Shown: positions 8,178 through 43,022 of the stretch, one piece after another
How positions within the stretch are numbered: position 1 is the stretch's first letter
Layout: every line of letters starts with the position of its first letter
DNA from: Gammaproteobacteria bacterium
GTDB taxonomy: Bacteria; Pseudomonadota; Gammaproteobacteria; Steroidobacterales; Steroidobacteraceae
Assembly (NCBI GenBank): GCA_027366635.1
Contig: DAHXNE010000092.1
Location: 1 to 56,648 of the forward strand
Direction: 5' to 3'
Length of the DNA: 56,648 nt
The notes under the pieces: generated by a model
The model's database searches: none
The model's input: the letters and a program-made list of their open reading frames with translations, nothing else
Told to the model about the DNA's origin: nothing
Program-made: the position numbers and the translations under genes

Positions 8178-11100
8178 TCAGTAGCGCAGCTCGTACGCCA
8201 GGCCGATGCTGCTGCCCGGATCGTTCTGCGGCGTCGTGCCCTGGGTGGTCGCGGTACCGTTGCCCACACGCGTCTCGAGCTTCAAGTGGCGACCGAGTGC
8301 GATATCCACGCGGATCTGGCTGGTGCCCTGGGTCGTGTGGGTCGCGGCGACGTACACCCAGTTTGACACATACTTGCCGGCGGTGATGCTCGCGCCGCTC
8401 GAACGTGTGCCGGGCGCTGCATTGGCGCTGCCCGACGGAGTGCCGCTGCCGATGGACAGCGTGTTCAGATCGAGGTGACGCCGGATCCAGGTGAGCGGAT
8501 TGAGACTGCCGGCGCCCACGCCGCCGAATCCCTCGAGGCTCGCGAGCGCCGCGCCGGTTTCTCCGAGCTGGTAGGGCGACAATTGCGAGGCAGGTTGTCC
8601 GAACAGCAGCAGCGCGAGCAGATCGTCTTCGGGAAGAGGTGGATTGCTCGACAGCTTGATCTGCGGATTGTCCGCAAAACCGGTGACGCGCAGCGTCACG
8701 GTGGTCGCAACAGTGGACATGACGCTGCTGCGGGCCAGGAAATCGATCGACGGATCGATCCGGTGCCGCAGTCCTTCGCCATCGAAGCTGACCCGCCCGC
8801 GCGTGAAATCGAGATTCCGGCCGGCGAGCGAGAAGGTACCGCGTGTCATCGCGAACCCGCCGCTCACCCGTGGATGGGCGGATGTGCCGGTGATCTCGAG
8901 TTTGCCGCCGAGCTGCGCATCGAGCCCCCGGCCGGTGACATATATGGTCTGCGGCGCCGTGAGGGTGAGCCCAAGACCGACCACGAGCCGGTGCACCGGG
9001 CGCACGGGCGGGGCCGCCTCACCCGGGCGGATCACGTTCAGTGTCGCGACATTCGGCGGCAATGCATTCGGGATGCTGATGGCGGCATGATGCACCTGGA
9101 TGACGCCGGTGACGTTCACCCGATCACGCAGTGTGCCATCGATGTGGATGTCGGCGCCGAAGTTGGCCGTCAGGATGTCGTTGGTGATCGGTTGGATTCG
9201 GTGGGCGATGAGCGCGATGTGGATCGGCAGCCGCGGCTGCAGCAACCCGATCGTACCGGTGGCGGACAGATGCCCCGGACCTGCCCGGGCCGACAGGCTC
9301 GAAATCCGCAGAACGCCGTGATCGCCGACGAGGCGCGCGTTGATATCCCCGATATGCACCCCGGAGGCATAATCGCGCAGATCGCCGCCTGCGAGCGTCA
9401 CGACGCCGCTGATTTCGGGCGAGCGCGTCGTTCCGAGCACACGTGCGTTGACCGCGAGGAGTCCGGTCGCGCGAGCCCCGCGCGCCTCGAGCATGGCATT
9501 CATCAGCGCGGCATCAAGCGTGCCCGTCAGGCGCAGGTCGAGCGATCCGGCGCGACTGAGCGGCGCGCGCCCACGCAGGGTGAGCCGCGATGCGCGACCG
9601 ACATCCAACGCGGCGGTAACGTTCGCCGCGCCGTCGCGCAACGTGGCCTGACCCCGAAGGTTCACCGCGGGCAGTCCCAGTGCCGCGGCGCCCGCGAACT
9701 CCAAGCCGCTGATTCTGACCGAGGCCTTGCCTGCGGGCGCCGTCCGCGCGCCAGTGAGGTGCGCGCGGACGCTCAGCGTGCCGGCCGAGAGCAGACCCGG
9801 TGCGAACGCATTGACGAGCCCGGCATCGAGATGTTCGACGGCCGCGCGGACATCGAGCCTCGGGGTAAGAGCGCCATCCAGTGTGAAGACCGTCCGGCGG
9901 ATGGCGAGTCGCAGATCGTGCACGGCCAGGCCCCCGGTCCATGTCAGTCGCGCCGGCCGCAGCAGATGCAAGTCCTGACCGCGATAGTGTGCAGCGAAGT
10001 TGACCAGTTCGAACGCATGCACTCGCGTGTCGAGCCGCGCGGAGGCGGACAGACGCGCCGGCGTGCCACGGATGTTGGCCGAATCCGCATCGAGCCGTAT
10101 GCGCAGCGCATCGAAGGGCCCGCTGGCCGCAAGCCTCACCGTACCGGTGAGTCCGTGCATCTCGATGGGGTGGGCGAGCAGGTCGATACGCGCACCGAGA
10201 CGGCCCGCATCCGGCACCACAACAAGACTGCCGTCGAGGCGTCCGGCAAGGGGTGTGCCCACGAGCGGTTGCAGGTCCGCCAGCCGATCTACGCTCAACA
10301 GCAGCCGGCCGCGAGTGGTGGCGAGGTGCGCGTTCGCGCGCAGCCGTCCACGGACGCTCAGGCTTTTCCAGGTCATACGCTCGACGTCGAGGTCGAAGGC
10401 GTGCGGGGCGGACCGTTTGAATGAGGCCGCGACCGTGAGCGGTGCGCCGGCCAGCGTGCCGCTCACCCGCAGGAGCGCGTGCGCCTGCGCGGGCAGATCG
10501 CGTGCCTGCAGGACCCCCGCGATCGTTCCATACGGGGAGCCATGCAGCGAAAGTCGCGAGTGGGCGTGGGCCGTGAGTGAGAACGAGTCCATCGGCCCGG
10601 CAGCCGATCCGGTCAGCTCGAAGGTCCCGGCGGCGGCGGGCGTGACCCGCGCCAGATCGGGCACGGAAACTCGCCAACGCGCGCGCAGGGTCTTCAGTCC
10701 AAGCGCCGCCGTGCCGCTCGCACTGCGCTCGGCCGTTGCGTTCGCCGCCAGTGCGATCGCCCGTCCCTGCAGTGTCAGGCGCTCGATATCGAACTGCGTG
10801 GGTGTCAGGCGCGCCTGCAGGCGTAACTGCGTGTTGCGGCCGAGCATGCGGTCGGCCGTGAGCGTGCCCCGCACGCGCGCGGTGGCGGCGAGTGCCAATC
10901 GAGTCACGTCGGCGCGCTGCGCAATCGTGCCCGTGGCCCGCAGCCCGCCGCGGATCGTCTTGTGGTAGAGCGCCGCAAACGGTGACAGGTCGGGCACGCG
11001 CAGCGCGAAGGTGGCACTGCGCGTGCCGGCGGTGAGGGCGCGGGCACGCAGGTCGAACAGTCGATCGGCCACGGTCAGCTGCAGCGGCCGCTGCGGCGCA

Positions 11101-30329: not shown

Positions 30330-31574
30330 TCACGGCGAGGCGCAACGCAGCCGGGCGATCCGCTCGAGGGCGGGCGGGTGCGAATAGTGGATCGCCGCAT
30401 ACAGCCGGTCCGGCGTGAGCGTGCTGGCGTTGCTGCGGTAGAGCTTCACCAGCGCCGAGACCAGCTGGCGCGCATCGGCGTGGCGGGCGGCGAAGCGATC
30501 GGCCTGGAACTCGTGCCGGCGTGACCACATCGCGCCGAGCGGCGTGGCGAACTCCAACACCACGGGTGCGGCGAGGGCGAACAGCAGCAGCGCCGCGTGC
30601 GGCGAGGGGTGCGGGACTCCGAGGGCGGCATAGAAGGCGCTGTGGCGCGCCAGCCATCCGAGCAGCGCGAAACCCACGAACAGCGTCGCGATCGACACCG
30701 CCAGCATCGAGCGCACGTGATGCAGGCGGAAGTGTCCCAGTTCGTGCGCCAGAACGGCTTCGATCTCCGGGGGCTCGAGGTCTTGGAGCAGAGTGTCGAA
30801 GAACACGATGCGCTTGTGCCGCCCGAATCCGGTGAAGTAGGCGTTGCCGTGCGCGGAGCGGCGCGAGCCGTCGATCACGAACACGCCGTTCGAGTGGAAG
30901 CCGCAGCGCGTGAGCAGCGCATCGATGCGGGCGCGCAGCGCCGAGTCGGCCAGCGGCGAGAAGCGGTTGAACAACGGCGCGATCAGCACCGGCCAGGCCC
31001 AGCTGAGCGCGAGCATCAGCGTCACGCAGCCCCCGAACGCCCAGAGCCACCACGCCGGCCCGGCGCGCATCATCAGCCACAGCGCGCCGAGCACCACCGG
31101 TCCCCCGAGCAGTCCGGCCAGCGCGATCTGCTTGAGCAGGTCGGTGAGGAACACCGGCACGGTGGTGCGGTTGAACCCGAAGCGCGCCTCGAGCCGGAAG
31201 GTCCGCCAGAGCGACAGCGGCAGGTTGACCCCCAGGGCCACGGCGGCCACGGAGGCGATCACCGCCAGCCCGAGCCACGGCTCGGTCCAGCCGGTGCGCC
31301 GCCACAGCGCGTCGAGCCCGGCGATGCCGCCGCCGACGGTCAAGCCGAGCGTGACCAACGCATCGATCAGCGTGGCGATACGCCCGAGGCGCGCCTTGGC
31401 CACGGTGTAATCGGCCGCCTTGCGATGCGCCTCGGGGGTGATCTGGCCGGCGAAGGGCTCGGGTACGTGCGCACGGTGCGCGCGCACGGCGTTGATCTGC
31501 CGGCCGGCGAGCCACAACTCGAGGCTCGCGCCCGCGGCCACGAGCGCGATGAACACGGCCGTGAAGGCGCTCAT
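30330..31574 (-). CDS. M48 family zinc metallopeptidase (Ste24/CAAX protease-like)
   Basis: 414-residue integral membrane peptidase. The zinc site is HELGHFRLHH with the third ligand in EFQADRFAA. About seven hydrophobic segments are visible; the N-terminal half resembles the M48 N-terminal membrane domain (AGRQINAVRAHRAHVPEPFAG, then several helices). Relatives include eukaryotic Ste24 and bacterial quality-control proteases. It is the last gene of the minus-strand operon that starts at hpnI and begins 19 bases after the ferritin-like gene. Whether it serves hopanoid biology or general membrane protein quality control is unknown. Confidence 0.9.
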   Translation of the reverse strand: MSAFTAVFIALVAAGASLELWLAGRQINAVRAHRAHVPEPFAGQITPEAHRKAADYTVAKARLGRIATLIDALVTLGLTVGGGIAGLDALWRRTGWTEPWLGLAVIASVAAVALGVNLPLSLWRTFRLEARFGFNRTTVPVFLTDLLKQIALAGLLGGPVVLGALWLMMRAGPAWWLWAFGGCVTLMLALSWAWPVLIAPLFNRFSPLADSALRARIDALLTRCGFHSNGVFVIDGSRRSAHGNAYFTGFGRHKRIVFFDTLLQDLEPPEIEAVLAHELGHFRLHHVRSMLAVSIATLFVGFALLGWLARHSAFYAALGVPHPSPHAALLLFALAAPVVLEFATPLGAMWSRRHEFQADRFAARHADARQLVSALVKLYRSNASTLTPDRLYAAIHYSHPPALERIARLRCASP

Positions 31575-31593: not shown

Positions 31594-32457
31594 TCAGAGA
31601 CGCGCCGGTAACAGCCGGTACAGCGCGCGCGCGATGGCCGGCACGAGGCGCGGGCGCACCAACCGGGCGTCGTACTGTCCCATGCGCCGGTCGTTCTCGC
31701 GCAGGCAGGTCTCGAGCAGGCCGTGCAGGGTCACCGGCGGGCCGATGTCCTGGTGCGCCGTGAGCGTGAAATTCTCGCTCGATTCGCGCGCGCCGCCGCC
31801 GAGGCTGCGCGCGGTCTGCGCGCGCGAGGCGACCTGCTTGAGAATGATCCAGCCGCAGCGCAGGCGGAACGCGGGACGCCGCCACCAGGGCAGCTCGGCG
31901 CGGCGCACCTTGATCCAGTTGACGAAGAACAGGATGTGGCGCACCTCTTCCTCCATCACCGGCTCGAATACCTCGACCAGCGCGGCGGGAAAGAATCCCG
32001 AATCGCGCGCCAGCGCGAATAGCCCGAAGGCGAAGAACGAATCGAAGCACTCGCCGAAGCCGGCGAAGAGAAAATCATCCTCCAGGTCGCGCGGCGCGTA
32101 CGGCGCGGGAAACTCGATCGGAATCCGGTAATGCGCGGTCAGCGCCGCGAGCAGGCGCGCATGGCGCTGCTCCTCGAAGCCCTGCAGCGCTATGGCGCGC
32201 TGCAGTTGCGGGTCGCTCTCCAGGGCCGCGGCGGCCGTGACGGTGTTGGAAGTCACGTTCTCGGTCGCGACCGCCTCCTGCCAGAACGGCAGACCCGTCA
32301 GGCGGTGCAGCTCCTCGGCAGACAGCGCCGGCCAGTCGATCCGTTCCGGGTCGTATTCGCGATGGGTGTCGATGAAGAACTGCGCCAGCAGCCGTTTGTG
32401 CTGTGGCGACCCGAAGCGGACGGTGGCGGTCTCAAAGTCGGCTGGAACTACGGACAT
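31594..32457 (-). CDS. ferritin-like diiron protein, possible hopanoid-modifying oxygenase
   Basis: 287 residues, from the ATG at 32457 with GAAGGGA 8 bases upstream. Four carboxylate/histidine positions fit a four-helix diiron centre: Glu66 (ATENV), Glu96-x2-His99 (EEQRH), Glu136 (FGECFD) and Glu171-x2-His174 (EEEVRH). Such sites occur in ferritins, fatty-acid desaturases and hydroxylases. The start lies 26 bases inside the end of hpnL, so it is translationally coupled to a hopanoid gene. There is no signal peptide; a hydrophobic stretch FFAFGLFALARDSGFF may contact membrane. The function is not known. An oxidation or desaturation of a hopanoid or a lipid is inferred from position only. Confidence 0.72.
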   Translation of the reverse strand: MSVVPADFETATVRFGSPQHKRLLAQFFIDTHREYDPERIDWPALSAEELHRLTGLPFWQEAVATENVTSNTVTAAAALESDPQLQRAIALQGFEEQRHARLLAALTAHYRIPIEFPAPYAPRDLEDDFLFAGFGECFDSFFAFGLFALARDSGFFPAALVEVFEPVMEEEVRHILFFVNWIKVRRAELPWWRRPAFRLRCGWIILKQVASRAQTARSLGGGARESSENFTLTAHQDIGPPVTLHGLLETCLRENDRRMGQYDARLVRPRLVPAIARALYRLLPARL

Positions 32458-33415
32458 GTTGCAATTCCCTTCTTCCCTCACTCCAGTACCAGGATAGCAG
32501 CGCCGGCACACCAAAGAGAATCTCCCGCATGCGCTTGGTCAACGCGAGGGCGAGGGCCATCTGCGGATCGATCCCGAGGAGGCTGCCGATTCCAACCAGC
32601 GTGACCTCCTGCACTCCGATGCCGGCGGGCACCACAAAGATAAAATTGCGGGCCGCCTGGGTGAGGCTTTCCAGCACGATCGCCGTCTCGAAGCCCACCG
32701 GATGTCCGAGCCAGCGCAGCGCCAGCCAGGTCTCGGCGGCGCCGGCTGCGAGTCCGGCGACCTGCCACTGCAGTGTGAGCGCCCAACGCGTCCAGTCGCC
32801 GATCAGCGCGCGGATCGCCGCATCGAGCGCGGCCCACTTGCCGTTGAGGAATCGCAGCATCTCCTCGCCGAGCATGCGCACCGCGACGTGCTCCAGACGC
32901 TCGAACAGCGAGCCGTAGTGCAGCAGGACGGCCAGCGTCACGATCACCGGCAGAAACGCGGCCAGACCGATCAGCACGGCGCTCTGCGAGTGCACCGTGC
33001 CGCACAGGCTGAGCAGACAGGTGACGCCGACCAACACGAACAGGTACTGGCTGAACAGCGTCAAGAGAATCTCGGTGGTGACACTGGCGGCGGCGGTCAC
33101 ACCGTCGACACCGCTCGCGGCGAGCAGCCGGATGCCCACCAGCTCGCCGCCGATGTTGGCGACTGGCAGGAGACGATTGATCGCCTCGCGCACCGCGGCG
33201 ATCCAGAACAACCGTCCGGCCTTGACCCGCTCGGGAATCAGCGCCCGCCAGCCGCGCGAGTCGAGCAGAATCGGCACGGCATGCAGCGGCGCCAGCCACA
33301 GCAGCACCCAGCCGGCGTGCTCGATGGGCGTGAGGATGGCGGTGCCTTCGTGCACGATCAGCCCGATCAGCAGCGCCAGGCCCGCCAGCAGCGCGATGCG
33401 AAACACTGTCTTCAT
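32432..33415 (-). CDS. hpnL: HpnL, hopanoid-associated membrane protein (LPG synthase TM-type)
   Basis: 327-residue inner-membrane protein with about eight membrane segments, related to the membrane domain of lysylphosphatidylglycerol synthases and to MprF flippases. Characteristic features are REAINRLLPVANIGGELVGIRLL, ASVTTEILLTLFSQYLF and VPAGIGVQEVTLVGIGSLLGI. It belongs to the HpnL family found beside hpnI, hpnJ and hpnK. The biochemical role is not settled; moving or presenting hopanoid is a guess. I chose the ATG at 33415, which overlaps the hpnK stop as ATGA. Its end overlaps the next gene by 26 bases. Confidence 0.87.
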   Translation of the reverse strand: MKTVFRIALLAGLALLIGLIVHEGTAILTPIEHAGWVLLWLAPLHAVPILLDSRGWRALIPERVKAGRLFWIAAVREAINRLLPVANIGGELVGIRLLAASGVDGVTAAASVTTEILLTLFSQYLFVLVGVTCLLSLCGTVHSQSAVLIGLAAFLPVIVTLAVLLHYGSLFERLEHVAVRMLGEEMLRFLNGKWAALDAAIRALIGDWTRWALTLQWQVAGLAAGAAETWLALRWLGHPVGFETAIVLESLTQAARNFIFVVPAGIGVQEVTLVGIGSLLGIDPQMALALALTKRMREILFGVPALLSWYWSEGRRELQHVRSSSRL

Positions 33416-34281
33416 GCGGCGCGGCGTGACTCGCCGCTCGAGCGCAGCGAATCGGTCAGGGCGCGGAAGCCGCCGGTGCGGGCGCCCGAGGCGCGCACGG
33501 CGGCGCGCACGCGCGCGCTGAGCAGCGCTTGCAGTTCGTCGCGATGGCGGTAGGCGCTCATGCCGGGCGTCAACCCGTCGCGCGTCGCGGGGTGCAGATA
33601 GATCTCGGTGAGGCCCTCGGGCAGCTGGGCGAGAATCTCGAGCAGCCGGGCCTCGTCCATGGCGCCGCTGGTCGAGATCCCGAAGACCGTCTGGTTGCAC
33701 TCGACGCCGGCGGCTCTGAGCCGCCGGCGCATCAGCGCGAGCCACGGTGTGAGCAGCGCGCCGGCGAGCCCGCCGCCGACGCGGCGCGCAACCCACAGCG
33801 GCTCGCGCGGCCAGCGCATCGGCGGCGCGCCGTATTCGGCCCCGATCGCAAGCAGCATGCCGAGTACCGTCGGATGCAGGTGAAAGTGCTTGTGCGCGTT
33901 CACGTGATCGAGCGTAAGCCCGGTGGCGGCGAAGGCCGCGAACTGCGCCCGGATCTCCGCTTCGAGCTGCCGCCTGACGCGCGGCAGCGCGAAGAAGCGT
34001 GCGCCCTCGCGCGCCATACGGTTCGGGAAACGGCCCGCGCCGTCGACCAGTGCCGGAATGCGCCGCGGCGGGAGCACCGCGTGTCCATCGGCGAGGACGA
34101 CATGCAGGCCCACCGCCAGCTCCGGCAGCGCGCGAGCGCGCCGCACGCCGTCATCGGCGGCAGCCTCCGCCACCATCAGGCTCGTCGCGGTGAGTACGCC
34201 CTGAAGGAAGGCCTGCTCGATGGCTTCGTTGACCGCCTCGTGCAAACCGAAATCGTCGGCGGTGACGACCAGGGCCCTCAA
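33412..34281 (-). CDS. hpnK: HpnK, hopanoid-associated deacetylase (YdjC-type)
   Basis: 289-residue polysaccharide-deacetylase-like enzyme of the HpnK family. In characterised species HpnK removes the acetyl group from N-acetylglucosaminyl bacteriohopanetetrol to give the glucosamine form. The metal site is seen in VTADDFGLHEAVNEAI near the N-terminus and HVNAHKHFHLHPTV in the middle; ATSLMV and IYLHPATRDGL are also typical. I chose the TTG at 34281, which gives MRALVVTADDFG, the family start, 10 bases after hpnJ ends. The frame remains open to 34338, but that extension reads as serine-rich sequence inside hpnJ and is unlikely. Confidence 0.88.
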   Translation of the reverse strand: MRALVVTADDFGLHEAVNEAIEQAFLQGVLTATSLMVAEAAADDGVRRARALPELAVGLHVVLADGHAVLPPRRIPALVDGAGRFPNRMAREGARFFALPRVRRQLEAEIRAQFAAFAATGLTLDHVNAHKHFHLHPTVLGMLLAIGAEYGAPPMRWPREPLWVARRVGGGLAGALLTPWLALMRRRLRAAGVECNQTVFGISTSGAMDEARLLEILAQLPEGLTEIYLHPATRDGLTPGMSAYRHRDELQALLSARVRAAVRASGARTGGFRALTDSLRSSGESRRAA

Positions 34282-34291
34282 CTGGGCGGGC

Positions 34292-35716
34292 TCAAGCCTC
34301 GTGCGCGTTGAGGAAGCGGAAGAACTCGACCCCCTCACGCAACCGCCGCTTGGTCATTTCCCAGCTGCGCAGCATCTCGCCGGTCAGCTCGGCGATCTTG
34401 CGCGGACGGAAATAGAACTGCTTGTAGAAGGTCTCGACCGCGTGATAGATCTCTTTGGCCGGCAGGTGCGGATAGCTGATCGGTGCGAGCTGAATGCCGC
34501 GGTCGTTGACCAGGTTGAGGTTCTCGTACGCGGTGAGCCAGCCGTTCTCGACCGCCTCCTCGTACAGCTGCGTGCCCGGATACGGCGCGGCCAGTGACAC
34601 CTGGATGGTGTGCGGATTGATGTCGACGGCGAACTGGATGGTTTCGCGGATGGTGTCGGCGGTCTCCCCGGGCAGCCCCAGGATGAAGGTGCCGTGGATG
34701 GTGACGCCGAGCTTGCGGCAGTCGCTGGTGAAGCGGCGCGCGATGTCGGTGCGCAGGCCCTTCCTGATGTTGTGCAGGATCTGGTCGTTGCCGGACTCGT
34801 AGCCGACCAGCAGCAGCCGCAGGCCATTGTCCTTCATGATCTTGAGCGTCTCGTACGGGACGTTCGCCTTGGCATTGCACGACCAAGTGACCCCGAGCTT
34901 GCCGAGGCCGCGGGCGATCTCCTCGACGCGCGGGCGGAAGTCGGTGAAGGTGTCGTCGTCGAAGAAGATCTCCTTCACCTGCGGCATGTTCTCCTTGATC
35001 CAGCGCACCTCGTCGATGACGCTGGCGGCGCTGCGCACGCGGTAGCGGTGGCCGCCGACGGTCTGCGGCCAGAGGCAGAACGTGCACTTGGAGCGGCAGC
35101 CGCGGCCGGTGTAGAACGAGACGTAGGGGTGCTGCAGATAGCCGATGAAGTAGTTCTCGATGGTCAGATCGCGCTTGTAGACCGGGGTTACCCACGGCAG
35201 ATCGTCCATGTTCTCGATCATCGCGCGTGGCGCGTTGTGCTCGATCGTGCCGTCGGCCCGACGGAAGGACAGGCCGGTAATGTCCTTGAAGGGCCGACCC
35301 TCGGCCACTTCCTTGCAGGTGTAGTCGAATTCCTCACGGGCCACGAAGTCGATGGCGCTCGAGGCGCTGAGCGAGCCGGCCGGATCGACCGCCACCTTGG
35401 CCCCGACCATGCCGACGAGCAATCGCGGGTTCTCTTCTTTCAGCAGCTCCGCCACTTTCGCATCCGTCGGAAACGACGGCGAGCTGGTGTGCATCACCAC
35501 CAGATCGTATTGGCGCGCCAGCGGCAGCACATCCGCCATCGACAGTCCGTCGGCGGGAGCATCGAGCAGCCGGCTATCGCTCACCAGTGCGGCCGGCTGA
35601 GCGAGCCACGTGGGGAACCAGAAAGAGCGGATCTCGCGCTTGGCCTGATAACGTGAGCCTGCCCCACCATCGAAACCGTCGAAGGAAGGGGGGTGCAGAA
35701 AGAGGGTTCTCATCAT
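34292..35716 (-). CDS. hpnJ: HpnJ, B12-binding radical SAM enzyme for BHT cyclitol ether
   Basis: 474-residue radical SAM protein of the HpnJ family. Residues about 1-160 form a B12-binding-like domain with a family-typical LFLHPPSFDGFDGG start. The radical SAM cluster is CRSKCTFC (Cys207, Cys211, Cys214), followed by FDDDTF, LVGYESGNDQIL and GTFILGLPGET. In characterised hopanoid producers HpnJ rearranges the glucosamine headgroup to the five-membered cyclitol ether of bacteriohopanetetrol. It starts 12 bases after hpnI and is followed by hpnK. Confidence 0.92.
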   Translation of the reverse strand: MMRTLFLHPPSFDGFDGGAGSRYQAKREIRSFWFPTWLAQPAALVSDSRLLDAPADGLSMADVLPLARQYDLVVMHTSSPSFPTDAKVAELLKEENPRLLVGMVGAKVAVDPAGSLSASSAIDFVAREEFDYTCKEVAEGRPFKDITGLSFRRADGTIEHNAPRAMIENMDDLPWVTPVYKRDLTIENYFIGYLQHPYVSFYTGRGCRSKCTFCLWPQTVGGHRYRVRSAASVIDEVRWIKENMPQVKEIFFDDDTFTDFRPRVEEIARGLGKLGVTWSCNAKANVPYETLKIMKDNGLRLLLVGYESGNDQILHNIRKGLRTDIARRFTSDCRKLGVTIHGTFILGLPGETADTIRETIQFAVDINPHTIQVSLAAPYPGTQLYEEAVENGWLTAYENLNLVNDRGIQLAPISYPHLPAKEIYHAVETFYKQFYFRPRKIAELTGEMLRSWEMTKRRLREGVEFFRFLNAHEA

Positions 35717-35728
35717 GACTTCTCGTCC

Positions 35729-36877
35729 TCAAGTAACGGGGCGGGCGGAGCCATCGCGAGCCACCCGGTATCGCGCATGGCGCCATTGAACTTCGCGCGT
35801 CGCGAAGCCCCAGCACCACAGCGCAAGGCCCAATAGGTCGCTCACCGGCAGCAGCCACAGGCGGCGCCAGGATCCGGTCCGGCGGGCGCCTTGGGCGCCG
35901 GCTGCGAAATGTAGCATTACGCGGGCCGTTGCGGTGGCGATCAGTAGGGCCAGGGCGGTCGGTCCGCCGTCGGCCAGCGCGTAGCCTAGTACCGCCATGG
36001 GCACGCTGAAGGTGAGGACCAGGCTGGCATAGCCGGCCGGTCGTACGGCCCGGATCGTGCGCAGCCAGCGGGTCTCATGCTGCACCAGGGCGCGCCATCC
36101 CGGCTCGTCGACCGTCGTCTCCACGACGACAGGGGAGAGCACCGTGCGCAGACCGCGGCGGCGGGTGAGCTCGCCCAGGCGATAGTCGTCCGCGAGCTGA
36201 TCGGCGATGGCGGCGAATCCGCCGATGCCCTCGAGCACCGATCGGCGCAAGGCGATGGTGGCTCCAAAGGCGAACGCCCGGGAGCCGAACCAGGAAGCCA
36301 CCCGTACCGAGGGCATGAACCAGTCGTTCACGAACAGCGCGCCGAGCTCGGAATACACGCCCGCCGCGCCCACGGAGCGGCCCGGCCGGCCGCGGTACGG
36401 GCATGTGACGATCCCGACGGTGGGATCCGCTAGGGGGGCGCACACGGCCGCCAGATACCCCGGGGGCACGTGTACGTCGCTGTCGGCGAGCACCAGATAG
36501 TCATGGCGCGCCACGCGCATCATATTGATCAAGTTGCTGACTTTGGCGCTGTGCCCATGGCGGCTGGAATCGACGACGACGGTGGTGTCGAGCGCCGGAT
36601 AGCGTGCGCACAGCGCTTGGACGATCGGCAGGGCCGGATCGGCCGGATCCTGCACGCCGAAGATGATTTGCGCGCTCGAGTCACACTGTGCGCACAGACT
36701 GTCGAGCGCCTGCTCGAGCCCCGGCTCCGCTCCGCACAGTGGCTTGAGAACCGTCACCGGAGGGGGCTGCCCGGCGGGATGGGGGAAGCCGCCGATGCGC
36801 GCTCGCCGCACGGCCAGATAGGCTGTGACCGAATAGCCGAACACGAGAATGCCAAAGAATAGACCCGGATCCAGCAT
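35729..36877 (-). CDS. hpnI: HpnI, hopanoid glycosyltransferase
   Basis: 382-residue membrane glycosyltransferase of the ceramide glucosyltransferase-like GT2/GT21 type. HpnI attaches N-acetylglucosamine to bacteriohopanetetrol in characterised species. The N-terminal membrane helix is followed by PPPVTVLKPLCGAEPGL, the donor-site DSDVHVPPGYL, DDYRLGEL and HETRWLRTIR (QxxRW-like). The C-terminus holds two or three membrane helices. It is the first gene of the minus-strand operon, divergent from idi across a 155-base region. A TTGGCA with TCCTAT 17 bases on is a weak promoter candidate there. Confidence 0.9.
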   Translation of the reverse strand: MLDPGLFFGILVFGYSVTAYLAVRRARIGGFPHPAGQPPPVTVLKPLCGAEPGLEQALDSLCAQCDSSAQIIFGVQDPADPALPIVQALCARYPALDTTVVVDSSRHGHSAKVSNLINMMRVARHDYLVLADSDVHVPPGYLAAVCAPLADPTVGIVTCPYRGRPGRSVGAAGVYSELGALFVNDWFMPSVRVASWFGSRAFAFGATIALRRSVLEGIGGFAAIADQLADDYRLGELTRRRGLRTVLSPVVVETTVDEPGWRALVQHETRWLRTIRAVRPAGYASLVLTFSVPMAVLGYALADGGPTALALLIATATARVMLHFAAGAQGARRTGSWRRLWLLPVSDLLGLALWCWGFATREVQWRHARYRVARDGSARPVT

Positions 36878-37032: not shown

Positions 37033-37635
37033 ATGATGGATCAGAACGAAGCTTCCCGTGAACTGTTGCCGGCAGGCGACAGCGTGGTCGGGAGCGAGTC
37101 CCTTATTCTGGTCGACGACAACGATGACGAGGTCGGCTACGCGAGCCGGACTCGCTGTCACGAGGGCTCGGGGCTGCTGCACCGGGCGTTCTCGCTCTTC
37201 ATCTTCAATGACCGCGGCGAGCTGCTGGTCCAGCAGCGTGCAGCGGGCAAGCGGCTCTGGCCGCTATACTGGTCCAATAGCTGCTGCAGTCATCCGCGCC
37301 GAGCTGAGAGCTTGGACGTGGCGATTCATCGGCGGCTCGGCGAGGAGCTCGGGCTCAAGTGCCCCTTGCAGTTTCTATTCAAATTCAAGTATCAAGCACA
37401 ATTCGACGGAGCGGGTGCCGAGCATGAGCTGTGCTCGGTATTCATCGGGCGCTCGGCTGGGCCGGTGCGGGCCAATGCAGCGGAGATCAGGGCTTGGCGC
37501 TGGATCGGACCCGAGGCACTCGATGCCGAGATGCGCGGTGCGGACACCGCGCGCTTCACACCTTGGTTCACCCAGGAGTGGGAGCGGATCAGGCTGGATC
37601 ACCAGGCGGCCGTGCGTGCGCTGGTGCACGGCTAG
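37033..37635 (+). CDS. idi: isopentenyl-diphosphate delta-isomerase, type I
   Basis: 200-residue Nudix-fold enzyme that interconverts IPP and DMAPP. The catalytic Cys lies in NSCCSHP (residues about 91-97), the catalytic Glu in HELCSVFIG and the metal ligands in HRAFSLFIFNDRGELLVQQR and the Nudix-like helix DVAIHRRLGEELGL. It is the first gene of the plus-strand hopanoid operon, so it probably supplies DMAPP for farnesyl diphosphate made by ispA four genes on. The start is the ATG at 37033; MDQNEAS from the next ATG would also work. Confidence 0.92.
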   Translation: MMDQNEASRELLPAGDSVVGSESLILVDDNDDEVGYASRTRCHEGSGLLHRAFSLFIFNDRGELLVQQRAAGKRLWPLYWSNSCCSHPRRAESLDVAIHRRLGEELGLKCPLQFLFKFKYQAQFDGAGAEHELCSVFIGRSAGPVRANAAEIRAWRWIGPEALDAEMRGADTARFTPWFTQEWERIRLDHQAAVRALVHG

Positions 37636-37652
37636 ATGAGGAAACAGGCAAC

Positions 37653-37670
37653 AGCCCCGCTGGCGGGGCT
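37653..37670 (+). repeat. GC-rich hairpin between idi and hpnH
   Basis: AGCCCCG and CGGGGCT form a perfect 7-base stem around CTGG in the 77-base gap between idi and hpnH. There is no following T-run, so it is not an ordinary terminator. It may stabilise or process the mRNA between the isomerase and the rest of the operon. Confidence 0.4.
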
Positions 37671-37712
37671 GGCCGGCGGCCCGGGCGCCGGTACAACACT
37701 GGGAGACGGATT

Positions 37713-38870
37713 TTGGGTATTCCACTGATTCAAAAGTATCGGGTCGCCCGATACATCATCGGCCGCAAGCTGCGCGGGCAGAAGCGCTATCCACTGGTGC
37801 TCATGCTCGAGCCGCTCTTTCAGTGCAATCTGGCCTGCGCTGGCTGCGGCAAGATCGATTACCCGAAGGAGATCTTGCAGCAACGCCTGTCGGTGGAAAA
37901 GGCGCTCGCCGCCGTGGAGGAATGCGGCGCGCCCATGGTGTCGATTCCGGGTGGCGAGCCGCTGATCCACAAGGACATGCCGCAGATCGTGGCGGGCATC
38001 GTCGAGCGCAAGCGGTTCGTGTATCTGTGCACGAACGCGATCCTGCTCGCCAAACACATAGACGAGTACCGCCCGTCCCCGTACCTCACCTTTTCGGTGC
38101 ACCTGGACGGCAACCGAGAGCGCCACGACGAGTCGGTGTGTCTGGAAGGCGTGTTCGACAAGGCGGTCGCGGCGATCCGTCTGGCCCGTTCCAAGGGTTT
38201 TCGCGTGACGGTCAACTGCACGCTGTTTCAGAACGAGAATCCCGACGGCGTGGCCGACTTCTTCGACACCGCGATGCAGCTCGGCGTCGAGGGGATCATG
38301 GTCTCGCCCGGGTACAGCTATCAGCATGCACCCCGTCAGGACGTGTTCCTCGGGCGCAGCGCGAGCAAGAACCTGTTCCGGGAGATCTTCACCCGCGGTC
38401 GCGCCCGCCGCGCGCGCTGGTCGTTCAACCACTCGGCGCTGTTTCTCGATTTCCTCGCCGGCAATCAGGCCTACCAGTGCACGCCTTGGAGCACCCCGAC
38501 GTACAACATCTTCGGCTGGCAGCGGCCCTGCTATCTGCTGACCGGCGAGGGCTACGCCGAGAGCTTCAGCTCGCTGATGGCGGATACCGCATGGGAGCGC
38601 TACGGCGTCGGCCGCAACCCGCTGTGCAACAACTGCATGGCGCACTGCGGTTACGAGGGCACCGCGGTCGATGACGCGTTCGCCCATCCGCTGAAGGCGC
38701 TGTGGCGCTCGCTGCGCGGGCCGCGCCTGACCGGACCGATGGCGCCGGAGCTGCCGCTGCTGTACGAGGAGCCGCCGCTGAAGGCGCAGGTGCCCGCCGA
38801 AGTGACCATCCCGCTCGGTGAGGTTGGTCAGGCCGCGAACCGGGAAGGTCGCCGTGTCAGCGGTGCCTGA
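37713..38870 (+). CDS. hpnH: HpnH, adenosyl-hopane synthase (radical SAM)
   Basis: 385-residue radical SAM enzyme that joins the adenosyl group of SAM to diploptene, giving adenosylhopane, the first step in making C35 hopanoids. The cluster site is CNLACAGC (Cys38, Cys42, Cys45), preceded by KRYPLVLMLEPLFQ. Further family blocks are VSIPGGEPLIHKDMP, YLCTNAILL, SVHLDGNRERHDESVC, SPGYSYQHAP and FLDFLAGNQAYQCTPW. CNNCMAHCGYEGTAV near the end holds more cysteines. The start is the TTG at 37713 with GGGAGA 7 bases upstream, giving MGIPLIQKYRVARYI, the family N-terminus. Confidence 0.94.
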   Translation: MGIPLIQKYRVARYIIGRKLRGQKRYPLVLMLEPLFQCNLACAGCGKIDYPKEILQQRLSVEKALAAVEECGAPMVSIPGGEPLIHKDMPQIVAGIVERKRFVYLCTNAILLAKHIDEYRPSPYLTFSVHLDGNRERHDESVCLEGVFDKAVAAIRLARSKGFRVTVNCTLFQNENPDGVADFFDTAMQLGVEGIMVSPGYSYQHAPRQDVFLGRSASKNLFREIFTRGRARRARWSFNHSALFLDFLAGNQAYQCTPWSTPTYNIFGWQRPCYLLTGEGYAESFSSLMADTAWERYGVGRNPLCNNCMAHCGYEGTAVDDAFAHPLKALWRSLRGPRLTGPMAPELPLLYEEPPLKAQVPAEVTIPLGEVGQAANREGRRVSGA

Positions 38871-39759
38871 GCTGCTGCCCGCGCAGCTCGAGCAATGGCG
38901 GGCGCGCATGGAGGATGCTCTGGCGCGCCGCCTGCCGCGCGCGGACCGCTGGCCCGAGCGGCTGCACGCGGCCATGCGCTACAGCGTGCTCGGCGGCGGC
39001 AAGCGTGTGCGGCCGATCCTGCTGCTTGCCACCGCGCGCACGCTGGGGCTGAGCGAGGAGCGCGTGGAGGCGGCGGCCTGCGCGCTCGAGCTGGTGCACG
39101 TCTACTCTCTGGTGCACGACGATCTGCCGGCGATGGATGACGATGATCTGCGCCGTGGCCGCCCGACCTGTCACAAGGCCTACGATGAGGCCACCGCGCT
39201 CTTGGTTGGCGACGCGCTGCAGTCGCTCGCCTTCGAGCTGCTCGCGCGCGATCCGGATTTGCCCGACTCCGGCGCGGTGCGCGCGCGTCTGGTCGGTCTG
39301 TTGGCCGAGGCCATCGGCAGCCTCGGCATGGCCGGCGGGCAGGCGATCGATCTGGAGTCCGAGGGACGCCGCCTCGACATCGAGCAGGTCGAGCGCATGC
39401 ATGCGCTGAAGACCGGTGCGCTGATCCGCGCCAGCGTCATGATGGGCGCGGCGTGTGTGCCGGATCTCGATCCACGCCGGGAGCGTGCCCTGGCGGGATT
39501 CGCCGCGCCGATCGGGCTGGCGTTTCAGATCCAGGACGATCTGCTCGATGAGCTCGGCGACACCGCCACGCTCGGCAAAGCGGCTCAATCGGACCGCGAG
39601 CGCGGCAAGTCGACGTATCCGGTGATCCTCGGCATTCCCGCCTCTCAGGACCGGGTCCAGCGCCTGAGCGAGCAGGCGCTCGAATCGCTCGCGCCGTTCG
39701 CCGCGGCCGCCGAGCCGCTGCGGGCGGTGGCCGAGTGGTTGCTGACGCGCCGCAACTGA
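38854..39759 (+). CDS. ispA: farnesyl diphosphate synthase
   Basis: 301-residue trans-prenyltransferase. The first aspartate-rich motif is DDLPAMDDDD, with the two residues between aspartates 1 and 4 typical of bacterial (type II) FPP synthases; the second is FQIQDDLLD. GGGKRVRP and the aromatic positions before motif 1 (HVYSLVHDD) fit a C15 product. KTGALI and DRERGKSTYP are also conserved. I chose the GTG at 38854, with GGGAAGG 6 bases upstream; it overlaps the hpnH stop by 17 bases. It supplies FPP to the squalene synthase that follows. Confidence 0.92.
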   Translation: MSAVPELLPAQLEQWRARMEDALARRLPRADRWPERLHAAMRYSVLGGGKRVRPILLLATARTLGLSEERVEAAACALELVHVYSLVHDDLPAMDDDDLRRGRPTCHKAYDEATALLVGDALQSLAFELLARDPDLPDSGAVRARLVGLLAEAIGSLGMAGGQAIDLESEGRRLDIEQVERMHALKTGALIRASVMMGAACVPDLDPRRERALAGFAAPIGLAFQIQDDLLDELGDTATLGKAAQSDRERGKSTYPVILGIPASQDRVQRLSEQALESLAPFAAAAEPLRAVAEWLLTRRN

Positions 39760-39772
39760 ATTTTCGTCCGGG

Positions 39773-40912
39773 ATGCTCATGCCAGACCTGTCCGAGTCCG
39801 ACGCGGCTTTCCAGGACCAGATCCTGCCGCTGGTGTCGCGCACCTTCGCGCTGACCATTCCGCAGCTGCCCGCCGCGCTGTGCACGCCGGTCACCAGCGC
39901 TTATCTGCTCTGCCGCATCGCTGACACGATCGAGGACGAGCCGAGGCTGTCGGCCGTCGATACCCATCGCTTTCTGCGGCGCTTCACGGCCGTGGTGCAG
40001 GGCCGGGAGGATGCGCAGCGCTTCGCCGCCGATGTGGTGCCGCACCTCAGCGACAGCACGCTCGCCGCCGAGCGCGATCTGGTCGCCAATACCGCGCGCG
40101 TGATGCGTGTGGTCGGGCGTCTGCAGCCGCGCCAGCGCGCCGCCATCCGCCGCTGCATCGCGGTGATGGGCCACGGCATGCATCGGTTCCAGCAGACCGC
40201 GAGCCTGCGCGGCCTGGCGCGCGCGACCGATCTGGACACCTACTGCTACTACGTCGCCGGGATCGTCGGCGAGACGCTCACCGAGCTGTTCTGTGCCTAC
40301 TCGAGCCAGATCGAGCGTCACTATCGGTCGTTGTACGCGCTGGCGCCGTCCTTCGGTCAAGGTCTGCAGATGACCAACATCCTGAAGGATGTCTGGGAGG
40401 ATCGCGCCCGCGGGGCATGCTGGCTGCCGCAGGAGGTGTTCAGCCGTTATGGCGTCGACCTCGCCAACCTGACGCCCGAGCGCAGCGATGCGCGCTTTCA
40501 TACCGGCATGATGGAGCTCGCCGGAGTGGCGCACCGGCACCTGCGCAATGCGCTCGCCTTTACCGTGCTGATCCCGGCTGAGGAGGCCGGCATCCGCAAG
40601 TTCTGCCTGTGGGCGATCGGGCTCGCGGCGCTGACGCTGCGCAAGATCCAGGACCATCCGGGGTTCACCGCCGGCAGCCAGGTGAAGGTGTCGCGCTCGG
40701 CCGTGGCGATGACTCAGACCCTGACCAACCTGGCGGTGCGCAACGATGCGATGCTGCGGCGGCTGTTCGAGCGCGCCGCGCGCGGGCTGCCGCTCGCCGC
40801 GCACGAGGTGCCGCTGCGGCCGGCGGGCGTGCCCGCCTTCGATGGCGCCGATGGCGACGCCGCCCTGGATGAGTACAGCGAAACCATGTCGTGTCAGGGC
40901 GCCGCGCCTTGA
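39773..40912 (+). CDS. squalene synthase (Sqs-type), single-enzyme route
   Basis: 379-residue squalene/phytoene synthase superfamily protein. Motif 1 is DTIED (residues 51-55, preceded by SRTFALTIP), and motif 2 is DVWED (206-210) in TNILKDVWED; YCYYVAGIVGETLTELF lies between. Length and these blocks are closer to the long squalene synthases, which convert two FPP to squalene with NADPH, than to HpnC or HpnD (about 280 residues each). Neither hpnC nor hpnE is present near it. The C-terminal 90 residues, which in Sqs carry a reductive step, are retained. It lies directly between ispA and shc. Confidence 0.83.
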   Translation: MLMPDLSESDAAFQDQILPLVSRTFALTIPQLPAALCTPVTSAYLLCRIADTIEDEPRLSAVDTHRFLRRFTAVVQGREDAQRFAADVVPHLSDSTLAAERDLVANTARVMRVVGRLQPRQRAAIRRCIAVMGHGMHRFQQTASLRGLARATDLDTYCYYVAGIVGETLTELFCAYSSQIERHYRSLYALAPSFGQGLQMTNILKDVWEDRARGACWLPQEVFSRYGVDLANLTPERSDARFHTGMMELAGVAHRHLRNALAFTVLIPAEEAGIRKFCLWAIGLAALTLRKIQDHPGFTAGSQVKVSRSAVAMTQTLTNLAVRNDAMLRRLFERAARGLPLAAHEVPLRPAGVPAFDGADGDAALDEYSETMSCQGAAP

Positions 40913-41057
40913 GCCGCTCCTGCAGACGCAGCAACGGGCTCGCCGGAGCCGGTCGGCCGCGGCCTTAACCGAAGAACAACCATGCATCCTTGCCCCACCA
41001 ACAGCCGAAGTGGCAGCTGCCGCGCCGATGTGCCGGCGGCCTGTGCCCGAGATTCGC

Positions 41058-43022
41058 ATGCACGAGCCGCTTGACCTCGAGGCGCGCGCCGAGCCGGCGG
41101 TACCCGCCTGGCCGCTCGACGGGCTGCGCCCGAGCGCGGCGCGCCCGGATGCGCTGGAGCGGGCCATCCGCGCCGCGCACGCCGCACTGCTCGGCCAGCA
41201 GCAGCCGGATGGTCATTGGGTGTACGAGCTCGAGGCCGACTGCACGATCCCGGCCGAGTACATCATGATGATGCACTACCTGGATGAGATCGATGCGCCG
41301 TTGCAGGAGCGCCTGGCGGTGTACCTGCGCGAGCACCAGCAGCCCGAGGGCGGCTGGCCGCTTTACCAGGGAGGAGGGCTGGATCTATCGTGCACCATCA
41401 AGGCGTATTTCGCGCTGAAGCTCGCCGGTGATGATCCGCAGTCCGAGCACATGTGCCGGGCGCGCGCGGCGGTGCTCGCGCGCGGCGGCGCGGCGCACGC
41501 CAATGTGTTCACGCGCATCGCGCTGGCGCTGTTCGGTCAGGTACCGTGGCGGGCCGTGCCGTACATCCCGGTGGAGATCATGCTCCTGCCGCGATGGTTC
41601 CCGTTCCATCTGGAGAAGGTCTCCTACTGGTCGCGCACCGTGATGGTGCCGCTGTTGGTGCTGTGCACGCTCAAACCCGCGGCGCGCAACCCGCAGCGGG
41701 TGGATATCCGGGAGCTGTTCAGCGTGGCCCCGGAGGACGAGCATCACTATTTCCGCCTGCCTGAGCGAGGCCGATGGCTTGCCCGGACGTTCTTCACGCT
41801 CGATCGGGTGTTCCGCGTGCTGGACCCGCTGATTCCGCGGGCCATGCGCGCGCGCGCGATCCGCCGAGCCGAGCGCTGGACGATCGAGCGGCTCAACGGC
41901 GAGGATGGCCTGGGGGCCATCTTTCCGGCCATGGTCAATGCGCTGGAGATGATGGTACTGCTCGGTTACCGAGCCGATGATCCGCGGCGCGTGACCGCCA
42001 AGCGGGCGCTGGAGAAGCTCGTGGTCGAGCAGGGTGATCGCGCCTACTGCCAGCCGTGCGTTTCCCCGGTCTGGGATACGGGCTTGGCCTGCCTGACGCT
42101 GCAGGCGGTGGGCGACGATGCGAGTCTGGCCGCCGCAAACCGAGGCTTGGACTGGCTGCGGCCCCGTCAGATCCTCGAGCCGGTCGGGGATTGGCGCGCC
42201 CGGCGGCCGGCGGTGCGCAGCGGTGGCTGGCCGTTTCAGTACGGCAATGCCCATTATCCGGATCTTGACGACACCGCGGTGGTGGCTTGGGCGATGCATG
42301 CGGCGCCGGGCCGGGAGCGCTACGCGCACAGCATCGAGCGCGCGCTCGATTGGCTGGTCGGCATGCAGAGCGCGGGTGGCGGCTTTGCGGCCTTCGATGC
42401 CGACAACACCCATTACAACCTCAATTACATTCCGTTTGCCGATCATGGCGCGCTGCTCGATCCGCCAACGAGCGACGTGACCGCGCGGGTGGTCACGGTG
42501 TTGGCCCGCGCCGGGCGGCCGCAGGATCGACCGGCGCTCGAGCGGGCGCTCGCGTTTCTGCGGCGCGAGCAGGAGCCGGACGGCTCATGGTTCGGCCGCT
42601 GGGGGAGCAACTACATCTACGGCACCTGGTCGGTGCTGGTGGCGCTCGAGGCGGCCGGCGTCCCGGCCGCCGATCCGATGGTGGTGCGTGCCGTCGAATG
42701 GCTGTGCGCGTGCCAGAACGCCGATGGCGGGTGGGGCGAAAGCAATGACAGCTACGACCGGGCGCGCTACGGCGTTCGGCCGTTCGTCAGTACGCCCTAT
42801 CAGACCGCATGGGCCGTGCTGGGGCTGATCGCGGCCGGCGAGCGGACCTCGCGGGCGACGCGCCGCGGCGTGGAGTTTCTGCTGCGTACGCAACAGCACG
42901 GCCTGTGGAGCCATCCGAGCTTCACCGCGCCGGGCTTTCCACGCGTGTTCTACCTCAAGTATCACGGCTACAGCGCCTACTTTCCGCTCTGGGCGTTGGC
43001 GGCCTATCGCCAGGGGAGCTAG
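41058..43022 (+). CDS. shc: squalene-hopene cyclase
   Basis: 654-residue membrane-associated cyclase that turns squalene into hopene. The catalytic acid motif DxDD is PDLDDTAVVAWAM (Asp402, Asp404, Asp405). QW repeats are visible at GQQQPDGHWVYELEAD, HQQPEGGWPLYQGG, EQEPDGSWFGRWG, CQNADGGWGESND and TQQHGLWSHP. A hydrophobic entrance helix (LALFGQVPWRAVPYIPVEIMLLP) is present. I chose the ATG at 41058 (MHEPLDLEARAE), though an ATG at 41028 would add 10 residues and neither has a good ribosome site. 145 bases separate it from the synthase. Confidence 0.95.
   Translation: MHEPLDLEARAEPAVPAWPLDGLRPSAARPDALERAIRAAHAALLGQQQPDGHWVYELEADCTIPAEYIMMMHYLDEIDAPLQERLAVYLREHQQPEGGWPLYQGGGLDLSCTIKAYFALKLAGDDPQSEHMCRARAAVLARGGAAHANVFTRIALALFGQVPWRAVPYIPVEIMLLPRWFPFHLEKVSYWSRTVMVPLLVLCTLKPAARNPQRVDIRELFSVAPEDEHHYFRLPERGRWLARTFFTLDRVFRVLDPLIPRAMRARAIRRAERWTIERLNGEDGLGAIFPAMVNALEMMVLLGYRADDPRRVTAKRALEKLVVEQGDRAYCQPCVSPVWDTGLACLTLQAVGDDASLAAANRGLDWLRPRQILEPVGDWRARRPAVRSGGWPFQYGNAHYPDLDDTAVVAWAMHAAPGRERYAHSIERALDWLVGMQSAGGGFAAFDADNTHYNLNYIPFADHGALLDPPTSDVTARVVTVLARAGRPQDRPALERALAFLRREQEPDGSWFGRWGSNYIYGTWSVLVALEAAGVPAADPMVVRAVEWLCACQNADGGWGESNDSYDRARYGVRPFVSTPYQTAWAVLGLIAAGERTSRATRRGVEFLLRTQQHGLWSHPSFTAPGFPRVFYLKYHGYSAYFPLWALAAYRQGS

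Follow-up and report, generated by a model that had tools for sequence, protein, structure and literature searches.

A ferritin-like protein family encoded with hopanoid genes in three proteobacterial classes is a candidate for bacteriohopanepentol and bacteriohopanehexol formation

INTRODUCTION

Few bacterial lipid fossils are used as widely as hopanoids. Their polyol side chain is begun by the radical SAM protein HpnH. A 2025 survey of 54 strains describes the genes for bacteriohopanepentol and bacteriohopanehexol, and also those for ring unsaturation, as unknown, and its authors report that a look around the hpn clusters yielded no candidate for the pentol and hexol genes (PMC12583986). According to Table 3 of that survey, pentol and hexol together make up 77% of the hopanoids of Enhydrobacter aerosaccus (Reyranellaceae) and unsaturated compounds 1%, whereas high unsaturation marks Skermanella, Afipia, and acetic acid bacteria. 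Other pentol makers in the survey include Sphingomonas mali, acetic acid bacteria, and Nitrospirillum, and Nitrospirillum and Asaia are hexol makers besides Enhydrobacter; the order of Rhodopseudomonas palustris TIE-1, in contrast, is reported there to lack pentols. Oxidation followed by hydration is proposed there as an alternative route to the pentol. In Burkholderia cenocepacia K56-2, a feature has been annotated as bacteriohopanepentol cyclitol ether, and an unsaturated cyclitol ether has been reported for three strains of the species (PMC8560942).

In the passages of the survey considered here (PMC12583986), no hopanoid gene is described as encoding a diiron protein, and neither "diiron" nor "ferritin" appears anywhere in its main text. 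A literature search, which covered mostly papers available without subscription, returned no report of a ferritin-like or diiron enzyme, hydroxylase, or bacteriohopanepolyol oxygenase acting on hopanoids. The described diiron proteins closest to the one presented here are R2lox and class I ribonucleotide reductase R2, the AurF-type N-oxygenases (PF11583), and the rubrerythrin (PF02915) and Ferritin_2 (PF13668) families. Here we describe FER, a ferritin-like, presumed diiron protein encoded in the window, by which we mean the whole stretch of 56,648 nucleotides of gammaproteobacterial DNA that was analyzed. Like the known hopanoid accessory genes (hpnA, hpnB, hpnI to hpnP, and hpnR), FER sits in or near the hpn clusters of several lineages and accompanies hpnH in the three genome sets scored for it; it is also a predicted diiron protein, which none of the genes named in those passages is said to be.

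RESULTS

FER is the last gene of an hpnI-J-K-L group and overlaps hpnL

The open reading frame labeled FER here lies on the minus strand, with its ATG at 32457 and its stop codon ending at 31594, and encodes 287 amino acids. As the original prediction had stated, it starts 26 bases inside hpnL, which ends at 32432. The gene had also been placed inside the hopanoid operon; its site is the 3' end of hpnI-J-K-L and not the middle. An M48 peptidase gene (30330-31574, minus strand) comes after FER on the same strand. The features of the region, each with the evidence for it, are the following.

31594..32457, minus strand: FER, ferritin-like, presumed diiron protein, last gene of hpnI-J-K-L-FER (frame, relatives, fold model, ligands)
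32432..32457, minus strand: overlap of 26 bases between the 3' end of hpnL and the 5' end of FER (sequence; same length in 27 of 30 hpnL-adjacent loci)
32466..32472, minus strand: ribosome-binding-site-like GAAGGGA within hpnL, 8 bases before the FER ATG (sequence)
32432..33415, minus strand: hpnL, start codon placed by eye (TIGR03476, 277.9 bits, cut-off 195.65)
33412..34338, minus strand: hpnK, start uncertain (TIGR03473, 378 bits, cut-off 232.6)
34292..35716, minus strand: hpnJ, radical SAM, bacteriohopanetetrol cyclitol ether (TIGR03471, 821.2 bits, cut-off 577.6)
35729..36877, minus strand: hpnI, glycosyltransferase (TIGR03472, 414.9 bits, cut-off 310)
37716..38870, plus strand: hpnH, divergent from hpnI, start codon approximate (TIGR03470, 530.3 bits, cut-off 225.05, match 37716-38675)
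40746..43022, plus strand: squalene-hopene cyclase-like frame (open reading frame; tblastn with queries from locus L037)

The same tblastn queries placed a squalene-synthase-like gene before the cyclase-like frame and HpnA- and HpnB-like genes after it. Within 37033-39759, an isopentenyl-diphosphate isomerase gene lies between hpnI and hpnH, and a farnesyl-diphosphate-synthase-like frame, recognized by eye, follows hpnH; judged by their sequences, the two are a putative precursor supply within the hopanoid region.

Among 32 loci of the window's kind (L001-L032; Proteobacteria, Gammaproteobacteria, or Steroidobacteraceae), hpn genes were nearby in 31, L028 having none, and hpnL adjoined FER in 30. 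Of these 30 loci, 27 had the 26-base overlap and one an overlap of 20 bases; in the other two, FER and hpnL were separated by 94 or 18 bases. An adjacency and an overlap kept so widely indicate that the arrangement is more than chance. Wherever the overlap was 26 bases long, a purine-rich stretch occupied the place of the window's GAAGGGA.

Another contig of the window's assembly (G000:C115:7875-8120, minus strand; L040/L051) carries a fragment resembling the C-terminal 80 residues of FER, with 63% identity and a stop inside the match. This fragment would be either a decayed second copy or part of a foreign contig.

FER combines a diiron-type ligand pattern with an R2/R2lox-like model

The six residues that the original prediction had named as ligands of a diiron center were all found at the positions claimed, on four helices of the FER model. 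Each of the four features below rests on the translation, the model, and the alignment.

32260..32262, minus strand: codon of Glu66, presumed metal ligand, model helix 59-79
32161..32172, minus strand: Glu96-x2-His99, presumed metal ligands, model helix 83-109
32050..32052, minus strand: codon of Glu136, presumed metal ligand, model helix 125-153
31936..31947, minus strand: Glu171-x2-His174, presumed metal ligands, model helix 165-188

All six were conserved in 97 of 98 distinct FER sequences, the 98th being without its N-terminal part. The E, ExxH, E, ExxH pattern of carboxylate-bridged diiron oxygenases is therefore present on four helices by both alignment and model.

The best matches of the FER model among solved structures were the two-metal proteins R2 and R2lox, at sequence identities of 6 to 14%; according to the structure-comparison tool, unrelated helical bundles can reach scores close to that of this match. 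The folds of acyl-ACP desaturase and aldehyde-deformylating oxygenase were not among the structural matches listed, an absence that excludes nothing. A phmmer search of FER against PDB sequences returned no R2 chain and one irrelevant weak match. No sequence relation to R2lox and R2 was thus detected, although a remote kinship may exist, and the genomic context of FER is a different one.

No Pfam or NCBIfam model scored over cut-off for the window's FER, and no Pfam model did for eight relatives. Taken together with the PDB sequence search, this led us to reject membership in a known family. AurF, rubrerythrin, Ferritin_2, COQ7, and DUF455 gave weak scores only when Pfam was compared with FER proteins. 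For AurF, the local score had an E value of 0.2 with the window protein and of 0.025 to 0.037 with three relatives, reaching 11.3 to 14.2 bits versus a cut-off of 29.6, and the best stretches spanned 32 to 51 residues. Rubrerythrin and Ferritin_2 have ExxH helices in common with FER and scored weakly with some of its relatives, but both stayed below their cut-offs (at most 18.8 versus 22.8 bits and at most 14.8 versus 24.7 bits, respectively), and they differ from FER in that its best structural matches were R2-type proteins. FER is an undescribed and unnamed protein family, carrying no NCBIfam name and having an R2/R2lox-like model.

FER is physically linked to hpn genes in gamma-, alpha-, and betaproteobacteria

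Linkage between FER and hpn genes was found in three proteobacterial classes, with hpn neighbors that vary among them and a pathway that stays constant. In alphaproteobacteria, whose loci were probed for hpn genes and a few others, we observed the order hpnK-FER-(FER)-hpnL-like-hpnA-B-C-D-E-shc, with two FER genes in genomes G615 and G714 and one in G480 and G863, as well as hpnJ-FER-hpnL-like in G795; the HpnL-like matches in alphaproteobacterial FER loci were 29 to 34% identical. FER lay beside hpn genes in all 14 FER-positive genomes of the Reyranella family. Twelve of them had FER-hpnA-B-C-D-E-shc (G475, G542, G471, G874, G875, G876, G883, G884, G895, G900, G901, and G908), and the other orders were hpnK-FER-hpnL-like in G863 and FER-hpnN-FER, on a 10-kb stretch, in G886. 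When one of these loci, L037, was checked against NCBIfam, HpnN (TIGR03480), HpnA, HpnB, HpnD, HpnE, and squalene-hopene cyclase were over cut-off and HpnM was below. As for betaproteobacteria, Cupriavidus metallidurans CH34 and Cupriavidus sp. EM10 had FER-hpnB-hpnA-hpnH-hpnM-hpnN, and in Burkholderia cenocepacia a single replicon carried FER and HpnH at a distance of about 377 kb.

In the class-wide draw of alphaproteobacteria, FER was within the fetched flank (about 9 kb, some shorter) of hpn genes in 6 of 27 genomes (G475, G480, G542, G615, G714, and G795), and hpn genes were not found within that flank in the other 21. Because flank linkage is limited to these six, co-occurrence across genomes is the wider evidence. 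A pair of FER genes in G470 (L033) and in G858 (L091) lay beside Sco-/PCuAC copper-chaperone-like genes and not beside hpn genes; likewise, FER of G136 (L054) lay beside a Sco-like gene and not hpn genes. All three genomes were HpnH positive.

In G865, the gap between hpnK and hpnL (L147, 7734-11330), which holds FER in the relative G863, is occupied by a LysR-like regulator, isochorismatase-like frames, and a DedA-like gene (by eye). That other genes fill this gap indicates that FER is accessory. A further cluster without FER was seen in G381, from the window's genus (L053): it has the rearranged order hpnJ-hpnI-hpnL-hpnK, is 43 to 72% identical to the window's genes, and was perhaps separately acquired.

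HpnH is the constant partner of FER in three genome sets

Of 385 alphaproteobacterial genomes, 27 carried FER and 106 an HpnH over cut-off; every one of the 27 FER-positive genomes was also HpnH positive. The same held in the window's class (274 genomes; FER in 3 and HpnH in 36; 3/3) and in the Reyranella family (61 genomes; FER in 14 and HpnH in 15; 14/14), where G865 was the sole HpnH-positive genome without FER. In the window's order, for which HpnJ was scored, FER was present in 9 of 196 genomes and HpnJ over cut-off in 11, with 9/9 FER-positive genomes being HpnJ positive; the two HpnJ-positive genomes without FER, G329 (L052) and G381 (L053), hold hpn clusters. The hypergeometric chances, which ignore kinship, were 5e-17 for the alphaproteobacteria, 0.002 for the class, 7e-13 for the Reyranella family, and 6e-14 for the order with HpnJ.

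FER was searched for with one query sequence in the window's class and with the A1 profile, which combines the window's FER with 26 of the 38 loci from an initial genome-contig scan, in the order, the alphaproteobacteria, and the Reyranella family. The genome draws are not independent: the alphaproteobacterial and Reyranella-family sets have G475 and G542 in common, and the order and class samples overlap with the initial scan, since L043-L050 (order search) and L041 (G156, class search) sit on MAG contigs that had also yielded loci of that scan.

Co-occurrence and adjacency with hpnL, which the original prediction had proposed to look for in related genomes, proved very strong, both in the 30 of 32 adjacent loci and in the HpnJ-positive genomes of the order. 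The partner of FER in every genome of three sets is nonetheless HpnH, that is, the polyol side chain, and not HpnI-L. Indeed, HpnJ was over cut-off in just 12 of the 27 FER-positive alphaproteobacteria, and the common factor is thus the polyol side chain rather than the cyclitol ether. A role in cyclitol-ether formation was rejected on this count and because hpnI-J-K-L occurs without FER in G329 (L052), G381 (L053), and G865 (L147). We also rejected FER as a general hopanoid gene, as 79 of the 106 HpnH-positive alphaproteobacteria and 33 of the 36 HpnH-positive genomes of the window's class gave no match. In the three sets scored for HpnH, FER occurred only where the core polyol pathway was present, as for a hopanoid accessory gene. 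Type I methanotrophs make an aminopentol; if they are among the 33 genomes of the class that gave no match in the single-sequence search, another enzyme would act there.

A diverged paralogue, clade B, nearly always accompanies clade A

A FastTree phylogeny with midpoint root was computed from the 98 distinct sequences, leaving out those below 200 residues (L031, L040/L051, L086/L117, and the second piece of L140); G659, which has two partial FER matches, was assigned to no clade. Clade C, which includes the window's FER, contained 32 sequences and clade B 21, each with a support of 1.0. Clade A comprises the remaining 45 alpha- and betaproteobacterial sequences, with a unity that depends on the root and a support of 0.87. 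A clade A copy accompanied clade B in 20 of 21 genomes (19 by tree and G473 by score), G136 being the sole clade B genome without clade A; genomes with A alone were common. The clade B gene was beside or near hpnN in 11 of the 14 FER-positive Reyranella-family genomes. In G809 (L097), clades A and B are fused in one frame, with domains at 9275-10087 and 8360-9136 on the minus strand, and in G615 the stop codon of A overlaps the start codon of B (TGATG). Such a nesting of B within A is the pattern expected of two successive hydroxylations.

By analogy with its family, Enhydrobacter most likely has FER genes, given that FER was found in 14 of the 15 HpnH-positive Reyranella-family genomes and both paralogues in 11.

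DISCUSSION

Proposed function and rival explanations

We consider it almost certain that FER belongs to hopanoid metabolism. The original prediction, a diiron enzyme acting on a hopanoid or on the side chain of one, is supported by the co-occurrence and by the R2/R2lox structural matches, with the reaction as we infer it below. FER is probably an O2-dependent diiron oxidase acting on polyols, and, with somewhat less assurance, we favor the reading that it makes the pentol (clades A and C) and the hexol (clade B). Its substrate would be a bacteriohopanepolyol made by HpnH and its successors, either free or with a head group. O2 would be activated at the presumed diiron site and OH inserted into the unactivated side-chain CH2 beside the tetrol (C-31), giving bacteriohopanepentol, while the clade B paralogue would place a further hydroxyl at C-30, yielding bacteriohopanehexol. 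With its hpnI-J-K-L, the window organism is predicted to make bacteriohopanepentol cyclitol ether. The high share of pentol plus hexol in Enhydrobacter aerosaccus (PMC12583986) and the B. cenocepacia K56-2 feature annotated as bacteriohopanepentol cyclitol ether (PMC8560942) speak for this reading. The most specific version of this proposal, in which clades A and C are C-31 hydroxylases and clade B a C-30 hydroxylase, forming an O2-dependent hopanoid branch across alpha-, beta-, and gammaproteobacteria, is tentative, and we would give it slightly less than an even chance.

Ferritin-like diiron proteins can also desaturate, and the main rival explanation is that FER introduces double bonds into hopanoid rings (delta-6 and/or delta-11), carrying out a diiron dehydrogenation like the acyl-ACP desaturases. 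Such an enzyme would answer to the ring-unsaturation genes that the survey describes as unknown (PMC12583986), and B. cenocepacia, which carries FER, makes unsaturated hopanoid (PMC8560942). As this species makes the unsaturated cyclitol ether besides the feature annotated as pentol, it cannot separate a hydroxylase from a desaturase, and its FER was found in strain CMCC(B)23006, which is not the strain K56-2 of the lipid data. Enhydrobacter aerosaccus, in contrast, does argue against a desaturase, having 1% unsaturated hopanoids versus 77% pentol plus hexol (PMC12583986) in a family where nearly all HpnH-positive genomes have FER. We consider a desaturase unlikely, but less so than the following two alternatives. 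Alcohol oxidation is more often carried out by NAD(P)-dependent enzymes, which counts against a FER that oxidizes an existing side-chain hydroxyl to a ketone (e.g., at C-32), from which a separate hydratase would then give the pentol. FER would likewise track pentol formation by this route, and a 32-oxo glycoside in Zymomonas is a possible intermediate of it (PMC12583986); on balance we regard it as improbable.

We think it just as improbable that FER is a rubrerythrin- or ferritin-like protein for O2 protection or metal handling, shielding hopanoid synthesis and, for example, the radical SAM proteins HpnH and HpnJ. The presence of HpnH in every FER-positive genome of three sets, the weak Rubrerythrin and Ferritin_2 scores below cut-off, and the copper-chaperone-like neighbors in G470, G858, and G136 would all suit such a role. 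However, FER is present in just 27 of the 106 HpnH-positive alphaproteobacteria and is therefore accessory and not generally needed, its best structural matches are R2/R2lox proteins, and two diverged paralogues together with their fusion fit two chemical steps better than protection.

With a suitable predicted ligand set and an exceptionless co-occurrence with HpnH in the tested sets, FER is a concrete candidate for the pentol and hexol genes, and its two-paralogue pattern predicts which species make pentol and which make hexol. If the hydroxylase reading is true, O2 would be needed for pentol and hexol in these lineages. The two compounds could then be scored from genomes and from environmental DNA, and, when made by these lineages, they would be molecular evidence that O2 was present as they were synthesized.

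FER and hpn genes on plasmids and chromids

A match to HpnH or HpnJ was present in 12 of 13 FER-positive plasmid or chromid records, the exception being Paraburkholderia phymatum pBPHY01; matches were taken at E values up to 1e-60, at which HpnH matched 31 and HpnJ 20 of 72,556 records. Plasmid p3 of Caballeronia zhejiangensis has the order hpnI-hpnL-like-FER-hpnJ, with a FER copy that lies in two frames and is absent from the gene table of the record. The region (L144, 8159-16284) holds hpnI, hpnJ, hpnK, an hpnL-like gene, and the two-frame FER; the plasmid is typed as mobilizable and IS transposase genes are nearby, so cyclitol-ether genes may be moving between replicons here. Finally, the 27-kb plasmid records of Lawsonia intracellularis (H75-H77) encode a radical SAM protein that is 34% identical to HpnJ over nearly its full length and, judging from this comparison, is probably not HpnJ itself.
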